A DNA stretch of 64,000 nucleotides. Source: Opitutus sp. GAS368. GTDB lineage: Bacteria; Verrucomicrobiota; Verrucomicrobiia; Opitutales; Opitutaceae. The stretch lies in assembly GCA_945874455.1 (NCBI GenBank), contig CAMCHO010000002.1, positions 28,155-92,154 of the forward strand, read 5' to 3'. This document shows positions 8,636 through 16,312 of the stretch, in pieces (position 1 is the stretch's first letter; each line of letters opens with the position of its first letter). The notes under the pieces are model-generated. The model worked only from the letters and a program-made list of their open reading frames with translations. It did no database searches and was not told where the DNA came from. The position numbers and the translations under genes were made by a program.

Positions 8636-10477
8636 ATGGCTCAAGCTTACACCGAAGCATCGATCAAAACGCTCTCCTCCCTCGAGCACATCCGCCTGCG
8701 TCCGGGGATGTATATCGGGCGGCTCGGCAATGGCACGCACGCCGAGGATGGCATTTACGTGCTCATCAAGGAGACGATCGATAATTGCATCGACGAATTT
8801 ACGATGGGCGCGGGCAAGAAGATCGAGGTCGTGCTCAACGAGCGCACGGTGAGCATCCGCGATTACGGCCGCGGCATCCCGCTGGGGAAACTCATCGACT
8901 GCGTCTCCATCATCAACACGGGCGCGAAATATGACAGCGAGACGTTTCAGAAATCGGTCGGCCTGAACGGCGTTGGGCAGAAAGCCGTCAATGCGTTGGC
9001 CTTCGAATATCGCGCGCAGGCGTTTCGCGATGGGCAGACAAAACTCGTGGAATTTTCCCAAGGGAAACTGAAGAAAGACCACAAGACAGTGAAGAGCGAC
9101 GAACGCACGGGCACGCTCGTGGAATTCACGCCCGACGAAGCCCTCTTTGGAAAGGATTTCAAATTCCGCCTCGAATTCATCGAGGACATGCTTTGGAACT
9201 ACGCCTTCCTCAATCGCGGGCTCACGCTCACCCTGAATGGAAAATCCTTCCGTTCGGAAAACGGCCTCAAGGACCTGCTCCAGAAAAATCTCAGCGGCGA
9301 GCCGCTCTATCCGATCGTGCATCTGGAAGGTGAAGACATCGAGGTCGCGATCACTCACGGCGCGCACTACGGCGAGGAATATTATTCGTTCGTCAACGGT
9401 CAGCACACGACGATGGGCGGCACCCACCTCGCGGCGTTTCGCGAAGCACTCGTCGATACGATCCGGAATTTTTTCAAAAAGGAGTATGACGCGGCGGACA
9501 TCCGTCAATCGATCGACGCCGCGGTCGCGGTGCGCGTGATGGAGCCGGTCTTCGAGTCGCAGACGAAGACGAAGCTCGGCTCGGCGGCGGTAGGGCCGAG
9601 TGGTCCCAGCCTGAAGGAATTTATCGGCAAGTTCATGCAGCAGTCGCTCGACGTTTATCTCCACAAAAACAAGGAGACCGCCGAGGTATTGAAACGCAAA
9701 ATTGAGGAAAGTGAACTCGAGCGCAAAGAGCTCGCCGGCATCCGCGGCCTCGCCCGCGACCGCGCGAAGAAGGCTTCGCTGCACAATAAAAAACTCCGCG
9801 ATTGCCGCCTCCACCTTGGCGACAAAAACCCGCGGGCAGAAGAGAGCACGCTCTTTATTGTGGAGGGCGACTCGGCGGCGGGTTCATTGACGGCGACGCG
9901 CGATGTGCAGACGCAGGCGGTCTTCGCGTTGAAGGGCAAACCGCTGAACACCTACGGGCTCTCGAAGAAAGTGATCTACGAGAACGAGGAGTTTCATCTT
10001 CTCCAATCGGCGTTGAACATCGAGGAAGGCCTCGACGGCCTGCGCTACAACAAAGTCGTGATCGCGACGGATGCCGACGTGGATGGCATGCACATCCGGT
10101 TGCTGTTGATCTCGTTTTTCCTGCAATTCTTCCCCGACTTGATCCGCAACGGGCATCTGTTTATTTTGGATACGCCGCTCTTCCGTGTGCGCAATAAGAA
10201 GAAAACGATCTACTGCTACTCGGAACAGGAGAAGCAAGCGGCGGTGTCGGAGCTCGGCGCGACCCACGAGATCACGCGCTTCAAGGGGCTGGGGGAAATT
10301 TCCGCGGGCGAGTTCAAGGATTTCATCGGCGAGAACATCCGCCTCGATCCGCTGACGTTGAACCACCTGCACAACAGCGACGAGTTGCTGACGTTCTTCA
10401 TGGGGAAAAACACCCCGGAGCGGCAGGATTTTATTATTGGAAATCTGCGGATCGAGAAGGATCTGGTGGCGGTGTAA
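8636..10477 (+). CDS. parE: DNA topoisomerase IV subunit B (GyrB/ParE family)
   Basis: [60 protein letters not shown] motifs. Confidence 0.9.
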
Positions 10478-10510
10478 AGTGAGGTGTGTTCTGAGATTGG
10501 AGGGCTGCGT

Positions 10511-10843
10511 TCAGAGCGTGCGGCTGGCGGCTTCGAGGGCGGCGGAAAAATCGGGCAGGCGCTTCCGTTTGGCGTAGGCTTGAAAGCGGCGGATGGCGAA
10601 GGGGGAGAGGTTCACCGTTTTGCGGAGCTTGCCCAGCGACTTGCGGCCCGCACCGGTGCGCACGCCGCCGCGGCCCGTGACGAGGACATGGCCGACAGCG
10701 ATGGCGGCCGCGGTGATTTCGGGCTGGTCGGAGAAGTCAATTTGGGCGTCGGGCTTGGTGGCGAGAGCGGCGAAATGGGCGCGCTCGGTGACGGTGAGCG
10801 GGCGGGCCAGAGCCTCAGCGAGGGTCATTTTAACGAGGGGCAT
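10511..10843 (-). CDS. brnA: BrnA-like antitoxin
   Basis: Downstream of and overlapping brnT; C-terminal GRKSLGKLRKTVNLSPFAIRRFQAYAKRKRLPDFSAALEAA like RHH-type antitoxins. Confidence 0.6.
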   Translation of the reverse strand: MPLVKMTLAEALARPLTVTERAHFAALATKPDAQIDFSDQPEITAAAIAVGHVLVTGRGGVRTGAGRKSLGKLRKTVNLSPFAIRRFQAYAKRKRLPDFSAALEAASRTL

Positions 10844-11102
10844 AATGGAGCTCTCTTTCGCGGCGGCTCGCGGGGCGGGCCGAGATAAGCCGGGTGACGC
10901 CGGCGCGGTCGGTAGGGGTGACGGTGAGGAGCAGGGCATCGGCCACGCGACCGATGGTGTTTTCCCTTCGCTCGACGGGATGGCGGGGATCGACCGCGGT
11001 GAGCCGGGCGGGATCGGCGAAGACGAGGGTGGCCCGCGCAAAATCCACCCCCTGTTTGGCGAGGTTGACAGCGGCCTTGGCGGCATCCCACGCGAACTGC
11101 AT
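10830..11102 (-). CDS. brnT: BrnT-family ribonuclease toxin
   Basis: MQFAWDAAKAAVNLAKQGVDFARATLVFADPARLT…RENTIGRVADALLLTVTPTDRAGVTRLISARPASRRERELHYA matches the BrnT pattern. Confidence 0.85.
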   Translation of the reverse strand: MQFAWDAAKAAVNLAKQGVDFARATLVFADPARLTAVDPRHPVERRENTIGRVADALLLTVTPTDRAGVTRLISARPASRRERELHYAPR

Positions 11103-11166
11103 GGCTGATAGCGTGCGCTCGATTTCAACTCGCGAAAGGGCGATTTTGGCGGGAGCTTTATCGTCA

Positions 11167-11228
11167 CGGAGCGGCAGGATTTTATGATCGGGAATCTGCG
11201 GGTGGAGAAGGATTTTGTGGTGGTGTAG
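11167..11228 (+). pseudogene. Duplicated 3' end of parE (ERQDFMIGNLRVEKDFVVV*)
   Basis: 62-bp match in length and frame to 10416-10477 ([19 protein letters not shown]), differing mainly by synonymous/conservative changes. Confidence 0.85.
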
Positions 11229-11252
11229 ATCGCGACTATTATCTATGCACCG

Positions 11253-11323
11253 ATAAAATATGTTTTATGGTAATATATTTATAAAATGAAGTTTATGATT
11301 GAAGATAGAAAATTAAATCTATT
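11253..11323 (+). promoter_or_regulatory. AT-rich promoter/operator candidate upstream of hipA-like gene
   Basis: Strongly AT-rich patch in GC-rich DNA; inverted repeats ATAAAA-TATG-TTTTAT (11253-11268) and ATAGA…TCTAT (11305-11323); AGGAGAA RBS just before ATG 11338. Confidence 0.5.
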
Positions 11324-11337
11324 CATAATCAGGAGAA

Positions 11338-12747
11338 ATGGCACGCCCGGCACAGCTCACCGTTGCCGACCTGACCCTGCGGTTTCAGGTGGGCGGAGCG
11401 TTGTCGGCGCAGGCGCTGGCGACGGCGTTGGACGTGACGCAGCCGACCATTTCGCGCGGGCTGACGCGGCTCGGTGAGTCGGTGGTGGTGCTCGGTGCGG
11501 CGCGGCGGGCGCGGTATGCGTTGCGACGGGCGGTGCGCTCGGCGGGAGATCGGTGGCCGGTTTATCGGGTCGACGCGGCGGGACGGGCGGGCGAGTGGGC
11601 GCGGGTCCATGCGTTGCACGGTGGAGTGTGGGTCGAGTGGGCGGGCGAGGCCCCGGCTTGGGCGGAGCGGGCGCTGGACCGAGAGGGATTTTTGGACGGG
11701 TTGCCGTTTTTCCTCGGTGATTTTCGACCGCAGGGATTTCTTGGACGGCAACAGGCACGACGGGTAGCGGAGGCGTTGCGGTTGCCGGCGGACCCGCGGC
11801 AGTGGGGCGACGATGATACGCTCGTTTTTCTTCAGGCGGAGGGCGACGATCTGCCGGGCGATCTCATCGTGGGCGAGGCACCCGTGCGGCGGGTGTTGGC
11901 CCGGGCGCTCGATGCGGCGACGACTTCAGCGACGGATGGAACGGTCGCGGAGAACGCGAGGGCGGTGCGCTATCCCGAACTCGCGACGCAGGTGTCGGCG
12001 GGTGGGATGGTGGGTTCGTCAGCGGGCGGAGAGCAGCCGAAGTTTTTGACGACGGTGCGACGCGACGCGGGCCCGGTGGAGCCGGTGTTGGTGAAGTTTT
12101 CCCCGCCGATGGAGACGCCCGTGGGGCGGCGGTGGGCAGATTTGTTGGCGGCCGAGGCGCACGCGCTGGCCGTATTGGCGGAGCATGGACTGGCGATGGC
12201 CGGGGCGCGGGTGCTCGATGCGGGCGGGCGGCGTTTTCTGGAAGTCGCGCGGCATGATCGGGTGGGCGCGCGGGGGCGGCGCGGGGTGGTGTCGCTGGAG
12301 GCGCTGCACGGGGCGTTTGACGGCGGTGGGGCGGCGCACGACTGGGTGGCGGCGGCAGAGTCGCTCGCGCGGGCGGAGTTGATCGAGGCGGCGTCGTTGG
12401 ACGCGGTCCGTCGGCTGCATTTCTTTGGCGAACTGATCGGAAATTCCGACATGCATTTCGGCAATCTCTCGTTCTGGCTCGATGATGCGCGCTGGTTTCG
12501 CGTGGCGCCCGCTTACGACATGCTGCCGATGGAGTGGTCGCCGAGCGTGCAGGGTGAGGTCGTGGTGCGGGAGTTGGTCCCTCGCGCGCCGTTGCCGGGA
12601 GCAGCGGGCACGTGGGGCGAAGTCGCGGCGTGGGCGGGGGATTTTTGGCGGCGCGTGGCGGAGGATGCGGCAGTGTCGGCGGAGTTTGCCGAGATCGCAC
12701 GGCGGGCGGGTGCGCAGGTGGAACGGATGCGAGGGCTGTTTGCATGA
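11338..12747 (+). CDS. HipA-family kinase, YjjJ-like with N-terminal HTH
   Basis: N-terminal HTH (LATALDVTQPTISRGLTRLGE), GGEQPKFL, HDRVGARGRRGVVSLEALHG, GNSDMHFGNLSF…RVAPAYDMLPM: HipA C-terminal kinase motifs. Confidence 0.88.
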   Translation: MARPAQLTVADLTLRFQVGGALSAQALATALDVTQPTISRGLTRLGESVVVLGAARRARYALRRAVRSAGDRWPVYRVDAAGRAGEWARVHALHGGVWVEWAGEAPAWAERALDREGFLDGLPFFLGDFRPQGFLGRQQARRVAEALRLPADPRQWGDDDTLVFLQAEGDDLPGDLIVGEAPVRRVLARALDAATTSATDGTVAENARAVRYPELATQVSAGGMVGSSAGGEQPKFLTTVRRDAGPVEPVLVKFSPPMETPVGRRWADLLAAEAHALAVLAEHGLAMAGARVLDAGGRRFLEVARHDRVGARGRRGVVSLEALHGAFDGGGAAHDWVAAAESLARAELIEAASLDAVRRLHFFGELIGNSDMHFGNLSFWLDDARWFRVAPAYDMLPMEWSPSVQGEVVVRELVPRAPLPGAAGTWGEVAAWAGDFWRRVAEDAAVSAEFAEIARRAGAQVERMRGLFA

Positions 12748-13988
12748 GGGCGGCACGGCGGCGAATCGGTGCGATGGGCTTGGCGTTCGCCTTGGCTTGG
12801 TTGGCTGGCTGCACGACTACGCCGGCGCCGCGGGTCGCTTTGGCGGCGGTGCCAGTCGAGCAACACGCGCGGGCGGAGGGAAACATGCGCGTGTTCGATC
12901 GCGTGTGGGGACTCGTCGCGGACTGGCACTACGATCCGAAGCTGCACGGCGTCGATTGGCCGGCGGCCGGTTTGAAGTATGGTGCGGAGGTGGCGGCGGC
13001 GGCGGACGACCAGGCACTCTACGCCGCGCTGGGCGCGATGGTGGGTTTGCTGAAGGACAGTCACACGCACGCGCTGTCACCGACGCAGACGAAGGAGCGG
13101 CGCACGCAGACGCGCGCGCGTACTGGGTTTTACATGACGCGGGTCGAGGGACGTTGGATCGTGAGCGAACTCGTGGCGGGCAGTCCGGCGGAGTTGGCCG
13201 GTGTGAAAACGGGCTGGGTCGTCGTCGCGCGGAATGGCACCGCGTTCGGTGAACGCAGCGAGGCGCGGCCGAAGGTGGGCGAAGTGGCGCAGTGGGAATT
13301 TTTGGACGATCGCGATCAGCCCGTGGCCCTGGCGATCGTCGCGGAGAGCCTCTCGACGAAGCCGCGGCAGGAGGTGCGGGTGCTGGCGGGTGGCGTTGTT
13401 TATCTGCGCTTCGATGCGTTCGACCCGGCGGACCGTCGCTGGCTGAGCGATCAGTTGAAAACGAATCGCGCGGCGTCGGGTGTAGTGATCGATCTGCGAC
13501 GAAATCCGGGTGGTGGGACGATTTCGCTGGGCATCACCATCGGAGAGTTTTTTGACCGGGCGGTGGACTGCGGGACGTTTATCACGCGTGGCGGGTATCG
13601 CGGCGGGAAAAGCTCATGGCAGATGGGGTCGGCGCGCTATGGCGGGAGCGTGGTCGTGCTCGTCGATGGTGCGACGGGGAGTGCGGCGGAGATTTTTGCG
13701 GCGGTGCTGCAAGAGCACGGGCGCGCGACGATTGTCGGCCGGAAAACGGCGGGGGCGGTGCTCGCGAGCTGGTATCATGGATTGCCGGACGGAGGGGAGC
13801 TGCAGCTGAGTCGCCAGGACTATGTGACGCCGAAAGGGCGGCGGCTGGAGAACGCGGGCGTCGCGCCGGACGTGAAGGTCGTGCGCACGGCCGCCGACGT
13901 GCGCGCGGGGAGGGATGTCGATTTGGAGGCGGCGCTGCGGGTGTTGGCAAAGGAGGCGTCCTCCCGATCGGGGGCCGCACGCCCCTGA
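12744..13988 (+). CDS. S41 family peptidase (C-terminal processing protease-like), lipoprotein signal
   Basis: LAGC lipobox; PDZ-like segment; GVVIDLRRNPGGG and VVVLVDGATGSAAEIFAAVLQEHGRATIVGRKTAGAV. Confidence 0.88.
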   Translation: MRAARRRIGAMGLAFALAWLAGCTTTPAPRVALAAVPVEQHARAEGNMRVFDRVWGLVADWHYDPKLHGVDWPAAGLKYGAEVAAAADDQALYAALGAMVGLLKDSHTHALSPTQTKERRTQTRARTGFYMTRVEGRWIVSELVAGSPAELAGVKTGWVVVARNGTAFGERSEARPKVGEVAQWEFLDDRDQPVALAIVAESLSTKPRQEVRVLAGGVVYLRFDAFDPADRRWLSDQLKTNRAASGVVIDLRRNPGGGTISLGITIGEFFDRAVDCGTFITRGGYRGGKSSWQMGSARYGGSVVVLVDGATGSAAEIFAAVLQEHGRATIVGRKTAGAVLASWYHGLPDGGELQLSRQDYVTPKGRRLENAGVAPDVKVVRTAADVRAGRDVDLEAALRVLAKEASSRSGAARP

Positions 13989-14149
13989 ACGGCGGCGACG
14001 GCGGCGACGAAGCGGGTCGAGACCGCGGCGTGAATGCGACACGGTGTGAAGTCGGAGGGTACTGATTAATCGGGGGTGAATCCGCGCCGCTTGACGCGCG
14101 GCGCGGGCGCGTGGCAGCCTGCGCGTTTTACCAATCTCTTTCGCGCGCA

Positions 14150-16312
14150 ATGCCCAAGAAACCGACTTCGAAAAACTCCGACCAATCCGAGTTGCCCCTC
14201 GACAGCGCAGCCGCGTCTGCGGCGGTGCCGACGCCCGTGGCGACGCCACCGCCGGAGACAAAGGCCGTCGAGTTCCCGGTGCCGGCAGAACCGGTGGCAC
14301 CCGCTGCGCCCAGCGTCGCGCTCGAAGGTCCGGCGGTCTTCACGCCCGGCCCGCGGCGCGGCGGTGCGAGCGTGCAGGAGGAAGATTCCCCGCTGGCGAA
14401 GAGTTACCGGGGATGGTTTCTTGAATACGCGAGCTACGTCATCCTCGACCGCGCCGTCCCGCACATCGACGACGGCCTGAAGCCGGTGCAGCGCCGGATT
14501 CTGCATACGCTGTGGGACATGGACGACGGGCGTTTTCATAAGGTCGCCAATGTCGTCGGTCGCTCGATGTCGCTCCACCCGCACGGCGACGCGTCCATCG
14601 GCGCCGCGCTCGTGGCAATTGGGCAACGCGCGTTCCTCATCGAGCCGCAGGGTAATTACGGCAATCTCCTCACGGGCGACGAGGCGGCGGCGCCGCGATA
14701 CATCGAGGCGCGCCTCACGAATTTCGCGAAGGACGTGCTTTTCAACCCGAAGACGACGGACTGGCAGCTCAGCTACGACGGTCGTGCGAAGGAGCCCGTC
14801 ACGTTGCCGGCGAAGTTCCCCATTGTGCTGCTCGAGGGTGCCGAGGGTATCGCGGTCGGCCTCGCGACCAAGATTCTCCCGCACAATTTCAACGATCTTT
14901 GCCGCGCGGCGATCAATCATCTCCAGGGAAAAACGTTCCGCATCTTCCCAGATTTTCCGACGGGTGGCATCGCGGACTTCACGGACTACAACGACGGCGA
15001 GCGCGGCGGAAAAGTAAAAGTCCGCGCCAAGATCGAGCAGCGCTCGAAATACCTCCTCGCGATCACCGAGCTGCCGTTCGGCTCGACCACGGAGACGCTC
15101 ATCGAGTCGATTTTGACCGCCAACGCGAAGGGCCGGATCAAGGTCAAACACGTCGACGACAATACGGCCGACTCCGTCGAAATTCTTGTCCACCTCCCGC
15201 AAGGTGCCGAGCCGGAGAAAGTCATCCAGCAACTCTACGTTTTTACAAACTGCCAGATGCAGCTCTCGCCGGCGGCGTGCGTGATCGAGAAGGACAAGCC
15301 GCAGTTCCTTGGCGTGAAGGAAATTTTGCGCCGCAGCGTCGAGCGCACGCGCGAGCTCCTCAAGCGCGAGCTCGAGATCAAGCTCGGCGAACTGGAGCAG
15401 CAGTGGCACTGGGATTCCCTCGAGCGCATTTTCATTGAGGAGCGCATCTATCGGAACATTGAGAAATCGAAGACGTGGGAGAGCGTGTTGCACGAAATCC
15501 GCACGGGCCTGAAACCGTTTCTCAAGCAGCTGCGTCGCGACGTGACGGACGAGGACATCACGCGCCTCACCGAAATCCGCATCAAACGCATCTCCGCTTA
15601 CAACCGTTTCCAGGCCGACGAAGCGCTGAAGAAAATCGAAGACGGGATGAAGGAAACGAAGGCCCATCTGAAGAATCTTACCGGCTATACGATCGCGTGG
15701 TTCGAGCTGCTTCAGGAAAAATATGGCAAAGGCCATAAGCGCCGCACGAGCTATGACGAGATTGAGCAGATCGACGCCTCGGCCGTCGTGTCGGCCAACC
15801 AGCGCCTCTACGTCAACAAAGACGACGGCTTCATCGGCCTCAACTGGCGCCAGCACGACTACATCCAAGACTGCACGATTCTGGACGCGGTGCTCTGCAT
15901 TATGCGCGACGGTTCGCTGAAAGTCGCGAAGGTGGCCGACAAAGTGTTTATGGGGCGCGACATTATTTACGTCACGATCTTCCCGAAGGACGGCGACACG
16001 GCGTTTTATTCGATGGTCTATCAGGACAAAGAGAGCGGAAAAGCCTTCGCGAAACGTTTCCAAATCGGCGGCCTCTCGCGCGACAAACTCTACCCGCTCG
16101 TGAAAAGTGAGGGCTCGAAGATCGTGTGGCTGCACGTGGCAAAGACGGAGAAAGAGATGCCGAAGCACGTGAAGGTCTTGATCGACGGCCGCAGCGGCGC
16201 CCGGGTGCGCGAGGTTGATTTCGACCTCGGGGCGATCCCCGTGAGCACCCGCAGCGCGAAGGGTGTGACGGTTTCGAAGTGGCCGGTGAAAGAAGTAAAA
16301 CTGATGGAGTAG
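14150..16312 (+). CDS. parC: DNA topoisomerase IV subunit A (GyrA/ParC family)
   Basis: [63 protein letters not shown]…PRYIEARLT. Confidence 0.92.

Follow-up and report, generated by a model that had tools for sequence, protein, structure and literature searches.

A brnT-type toxin-antitoxin cassette between two copies of the parE 3' end in Opitutus sp. GAS368, with repeat-flanked toxin-antitoxin loci elsewhere in Verrucomicrobiota

The window analysed here is a 64,000-nt stretch of the Opitutus sp. GAS368 genome that contains parE, the gene for topoisomerase IV subunit B (8636..10477, plus strand, 613 residues), and parC (14111..16312, plus strand). The latter was placed from the ORF list and from the parE-parC order in relatives, and forms the right border of a variable gap. 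ParE, the product of the target gene, has an intact C-terminus and is 98–99% identical to its full-length relatives from the same genus. The stop codon of parE is followed by a 751-bp unit (10478..11228), consisting of a cassette and one further copy of the parE tail. The cassette encodes brnT on the minus strand (10830..11102, 90 residues), the predicted RNase toxin of a type II toxin-antitoxin pair, with a BrnT domain scoring above the curated cut-off (PF04365, E=2e-19). A second minus-strand ORF (10511..10843, 110 residues) overlaps the 3' end of brnT. The initial annotation took the two genes for a brnTA module, and the domain match bears this out for brnT; the 110-residue ORF has no family match in Pfam, NCBIfam or PDB and is therefore designated a putative BrnA-type antitoxin by its position and gene order alone. 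The unit is followed by an AT-rich spacer (11229..11337) that is common to genomes G002, G008 and G005 in the alignment of downstream sequences, and by a HipA-type toxin gene of the YjjJ family (11338..12747, plus strand; NF007297, E=9e-141; PF07804), the second module in the gap. An S41-family peptidase gene (12744..13988, plus strand), assigned from PF03572 (E=8e-34) and gene order, separates hipA from parC.

The inserted unit is bounded by a direct repeat. Copy 1 (10416..10477, plus strand) is the functional 3' end of parE including its stop codon, and copy 2 (11167..11228, plus strand) is a non-coding relic of the same end that reads ERQDFMIGNLRVEKDFVVV and a stop in translation. The two copies align without gaps over 61 nt, at 87% identity. 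Within the parE-parC gap, the 62-base parE tail finds its best match at 11167, with 53 of 62 positions identical, compared with a mean of 29.8 and a maximum of 35 in 1000 dinucleotide shuffles. Thus, the two parE tails with a brnT-type pair between them on the minus strand are confirmed as originally described. Among 374 ORFs from 464 kb of this genome, parE alone has a downstream copy of its tail that is not an interspersed repeat. Own-genome matches at three other loci (L166, L271 and L272) were rejected as tails and represent interspersed repeats; L166 and L272, both on contig C12 of this genome (G000), carry a 50–90 bp repeat (GCAGAGACGRCACYGRCACGCAGRGAAA...) with several copies nearby. 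Within the window, large paralogous ORFs between 49238 and 61095 have mutually similar C-terminal DNA, which gives rise to weak tail matches that are not insertion scars.

A parE gene was found in 74 of 76 related genomes, some of the matches in distant genomes being to paralogs. Within the genus, the cassette recurs in three other species (G003, G005 and G008), each with a second tail at a distance of 751 bp. G002 contains hipA, with neither the cassette nor the second tail, and the sequence directly after its parE stop codon is ATCGCGACTATTATCTATGCACCGATA / ATCGCGACTATTATC; in the window, this sequence comes after copy 2. Therefore, the 751 bp correspond to a unit that was either inserted or excised, and copy 2 is a tail joined to native downstream sequence. 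These observations support the earlier proposal of a cargo segment inserted at the end of parE, and they amend its description of a scar in that copy 2 is the tail attached to the native sequence. No relative within the genus lacks brnTA yet retains the second tail. A tree of the parE body has the topology (G005,((G000,G008),(G002,G003))), with G006 and G007 outside and weak support for the G002/G003 fork. Since G002 is nested among carriers, its lack of the unit may be due to a later excision in which the two tails recombined. The insertion reading is qualified accordingly: the direction of change at parE is either gain in the other species or loss in G002, which weighs against the explanation favored below. 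In G004, G006 and G007 the S41 peptidase gene lies directly after parE, and from this gene order it is the probable ancestral neighbor of parE.

Elsewhere in the family (loci L033–L072), the parE-parC gap ranges from about 0 to 8.6 kb and its gene contents differ. Other cargo between parE tails, which the initial annotation had suggested looking for, does occur. In a second genus (G031, locus L041), an independent second parE tail is located 813 bp downstream, with a reading 6 bp longer that ends in VVAEA and a stop codon, and the intervening ORF resembles a secreted protein rather than a toxin-antitoxin component. A weak second tail about 1.7 kb downstream of parE in G244 (L122; 58% at the protein level, E=0.004) was not counted, and in G046 (L054) the 3' end of parC recurs about 0.3 kb downstream of the gene as a weak and decayed repeat of 80 nt. 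E. coli K-12 (L375) likewise has a toxin-antitoxin pair, mqsRA, in the interval between parC and parE.

The affinities of the tails were compared over a 57-nt stretch, a length that does not allow a firm tree. In the window, copy 1 differs at 1–4 positions from the tails of G008, G003 and G002, and copy 2 differs at 4 positions from the parE tail of G005 and at 2 from copy 2 of G008, whereas the two window copies differ from each other at 8. Within the limits of this short stretch, the two tails are thus not each other's closest relatives, and in both G000 and G003 copy 2 is nearer to the G005 tail than to copy 1 of its own locus. In G005 itself, copy 2 has decayed and no longer contains a stop codon. 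In one strain variant of G008, copy 2 is similar to copy 1 of G003, a pattern that gene conversion or recombination would give.

The cassette is also out of step with the gene beside it. Divergence from G005 is 5–7% for the cassette, about 10% for parE and 13–24% for most of hipA. Expressed as the ratio of the distance to G005 over the distance to G003, the cassette has a value of 1.21 (95% interval 0.91–1.68) and parE a value of 1.97 (1.67–2.36), with a bootstrap P of about 0.006. The lower divergence of the cassette from G005 therefore indicates that it has moved between lineages. However, the contrast between cassette and parE is weakened by the mosaic nature of the region: proximity to G005 extends to the 3' end of parE and to the initial 450 bp of hipA, but not to copy 2 or the spacer. 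Replacement is also evident further downstream: in G003 (L035) a homolog that is 38% different takes the place of the window hipA (11338–12747), and parE and parC are nearly those of G002.

Differences between tail copies were further examined at the codon level. When seven tail pairs not belonging to the parE clade of this genus were pooled, synonymous changes made up 23.5 of 35 differences, compared with 9.8 expected from neutral change, and none of 2000 simulations reached the observed value. Therefore, both copies were coding sequence for some time, which is expected of tails derived from different lineages. The mostly codon-neutral divergence noted in the initial annotation holds weakly for the window parE pair taken alone, where 4.5 of 9 changes are synonymous and 2.7 are expected, an excess that is not significant (P=0.09). 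Two fresh cases have identical copies, of 42 bp in G261 and 43 bp in G188; these fit simple duplication without any foreign tail and weigh against the favored explanation. The simplest reading of the tails is that they would have arisen by duplication at first entry and been exchanged between lineages afterwards.

The layout is not peculiar to parE, on which the initial annotation had focused, and appears to be a wider habit of toxin-antitoxin loci in Verrucomicrobiota. Loci were taken blind to repeats (RelE-type and HicA loci from the family, and further RelE-type loci from across the phylum) and counted with full flanks; GNAT and GT2 loci of the same family served as controls. Direct repeats of 24–155 bp spanning the locus were found at 21 of 91 toxin-antitoxin loci and at 0 of 57 control loci (P=1.3e-5). 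Under an automatic rule for repeats of the gene-tail type, the counts are 9 of 91 and 0 of 57 (P=0.011), and most repeats at the 21 loci fail this rule. Since toxin-antitoxin loci are not independent draws, related genomes sharing some of the cases (e.g. L289 and L293), these P values serve as guides. Random windows of the Opitutus genome contain spanning repeats in 3 of 120 cases. The dinJ-yafQ, yafNO and mqsRA loci of E. coli K-12 have no spanning repeats, and the recurrence is thus reported here for Verrucomicrobiota only. Brn-type loci as a special case were rejected, as RelE and HicA loci show the same layout.

At several loci the repeats are the 3' ends of unrelated genes, including those for mutY-like, radical-SAM, ceramidase-like, MGDG-synthase-like and GSDH proteins. 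Two further scars were found through BrnT relatives: one of 46 bp at a uvrD-like gene (L155), with a RelBE-type pair and BrnTA between the copies, and one of 37 bp at a DUF7305 protein gene (L135), with BrnTA and HicBA-type genes between. A repeat of 155 bp at L209 is 77% identical between copies and has a stop within copy 2. A second empty site concerns the ceramidase-like gene. In G261 the toxin-antitoxin insert at this gene is accompanied by the 42-bp, 100% identical duplication, which spans the stop codon; in G264, from the same genus, the exact empty site has a single repeat copy without an insert, and the two sequences cease to align precisely at the repeat. Arrays are also present. Outside the window, positions 62–4362 of contig C137 in G000 (L266) contain a tandem series of toxin-antitoxin-like modules in which a single 87-bp repeat, present four times, separates the units: a RelE-type, an MNT/HEPN-like, a HicBA-type and another RelBE-like pair, with names read from the ORFs except for the HicA marker. 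Contig C34 of G254 (L314) contains HicBA and RelE-type modules with three copies of the 87-bp repeat, in an order that differs from C137.

These data make it probable that brnTA is a small mobile cassette without an enzyme of its own, which was inserted at the parE 3' end and duplicated that end in a manner like insertion with long target duplication, and which was later subject to homologous exchange. The nearest alternative is that the entire history consists of such an insertion followed by decay in place, so that the copies were identical at first, copy 2 drifted, and neither a foreign tail nor transfer between lineages was involved. The identical copies in G261 and G188, the decayed copy 2 of G005 and the diverged repeat at L209 are all what this account would produce, but it has difficulty with the predominantly synonymous differences of the pooled pairs, with the affinity of copy 2 in G000 and G003 for the G005 tail, and with a cassette whose divergence does not follow that of parE; it is a possible but unlikely account overall. 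A foreign tail would arrive in a single step by homology-facilitated illegitimate recombination, known from competent bacteria and from conjugation in E. coli (PMC3240628), in which homologous recombination within parE and an illegitimate join inside the resident tail would leave the scar with no mobile cassette at all. The low divergence from G005 shared by the parE 3' end and the cassette agrees with this mechanism. Nevertheless, it leaves unexplained both the bias of spanning repeats towards toxin-antitoxin loci and the multi-module arrays with one repeat between modules, and we regard it as rather doubtful.

Integrases often use the 3' ends of genes and restore them, and the unit could accordingly be the remnant of an integrase-driven element with its attachment site at the parE 3' end and its integrase since deleted; the variation of the gap in the family, up to 8.6 kb, would suit such elements. 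In agreement with the initial annotation, however, the ORF list and domain searches reveal no integrase or site-specific recombinase, either between the tails or elsewhere in the parE-parC gap (hipA and the S41 peptidase gene). A viral carrier was rejected, as neither the tail core nor a BrnT relative occurs in viral contigs, and a plasmid or phage carrier was rejected as well, the cassette being without a match in plasmids and phages. Together with the same layout at unrelated target genes, this makes the remnant improbable. Assembly artefacts or strain mixing can create look-alikes: a second tail in G170 was discarded as an N-bridged scaffold duplicate of identical sequence, and an apparent third tail in G008, which has two strain-variant contigs over the region, proved to be such a contig overlapping the same locus. 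The parE structure itself is very unlikely to have this origin, given that it recurs with differing copies in four assemblies (three of them MAG records) and that a 100% identical repeat is present in the single-contig genome G188.

In the favored scheme of a mobile brnTA cassette, the module would enter at the parE 3' end such that the upstream copy completes parE and the downstream copy is left as a scar. First entry would probably proceed through insertion with long target duplication; an empty site, a precise extra unit and a long repeat are observed, and a breakage or strand-switch step may have made the repeat. The module flanked by two tails could then be exchanged, lost or moved to another lineage by homologous recombination at the tails or flanks. 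The cassette out of step with parE, the tails of mixed affinity and the strain variants of copy 2 are seen in the genomes, and circular or linear intermediates may have been involved. Persistence at the site might be favored because insertion after the stop codon would spare an essential gene and loss of an addiction module would be penalized. Comparison of genomes shows both the presence and absence of the cassette and its movement; the molecular route is one that we infer. Given the same layout at other toxin-antitoxin loci, modules of this kind seem to travel as bare cassettes that lack an enzyme of their own. The distribution of small chromosomal toxin-antitoxin modules is patchy, although a means of movement is not visible in most of them. 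A recurring, searchable scar, the duplicated gene tail on both sides of a module, would make their mobility testable genome by genome, would tie their spread to the route proposed for restriction-modification systems, and would explain how they settle beside essential genes harmlessly.

Several known systems share parts of this layout. As in integrative elements at gene 3' ends, the insert restores the 3' end of its target and the displaced tail lies at the far side; in contrast to these elements, the units here are smaller than a kilobase, have unrelated targets and come with no integrase. The minimal mobile elements of Neisseria are variable modules between two conserved genes that are exchanged by recombination in the flanks, and the differing gene sets in a parE-parC gap of about 0 to 8.6 kb are similar; the module here, however, is bounded by a direct repeat of the end of the upstream gene. 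Integron gene cassettes are likewise small, often encode toxin-antitoxin pairs and form arrays separated by a repeat, as on contigs C137 of G000 and C34 of G254, but no integrase was seen among the ORFs examined here, and the repeats differ by locus, several being derived from the adjacent gene. A broader and tentative idea, which we consider unlikely as it stands, is that toxin-antitoxin modules of Verrucomicrobiota form an integrase-free cassette system, in which a pair together with a host-gene 3' end would move by tail recombination while regenerating the gene, and repeated entry would build shuffling arrays, a recombinase-free analog of integrons.

The closest parallel is found in restriction-modification systems, whose insertions, unlinked to known mobile elements, have been reported to be accompanied by target duplications that are long (about 100 bp in order of magnitude) and variable in length (PMC3874152, PMC3031569, PMC1643837; Nobusato et al. 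2000 and Furuta et al. 2010, as cited therein). Type I and II toxin-antitoxin systems are reviewed as residing mostly on known carriers or at ordinary chromosomal positions (PMC3874152), and a literature search, mostly outside subscription papers, found no description of long target duplication for toxin-antitoxin modules. The common features are that the module is addictive and lacks a transposase, that the insert is flanked by long direct repeats whose length varies (61 nt at parE, 24–155 bp at the other toxin-antitoxin loci), and that relatives have a single-copy empty site (G264 at the ceramidase-like gene and G002 at parE, the latter possibly by secondary loss). The identical copies in G261 and G188 agree with a duplication of the resident target; the mixed affinities of the parE tails do not. 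The systems also differ in that the cargo here is a type II toxin-antitoxin pair (BrnT and its putative antitoxin) rather than restriction-modification genes, the repeat often consists of a gene 3' end that the insert regenerates, the copies can come from different lineages, arrays occur, and the hosts are Verrucomicrobiota instead of Helicobacter. The structure at parE is real, recurrent and unusual, and we interpret it as the toxin-antitoxin counterpart of insertion with long target duplication, followed by exchange through homologous recombination at the tails.
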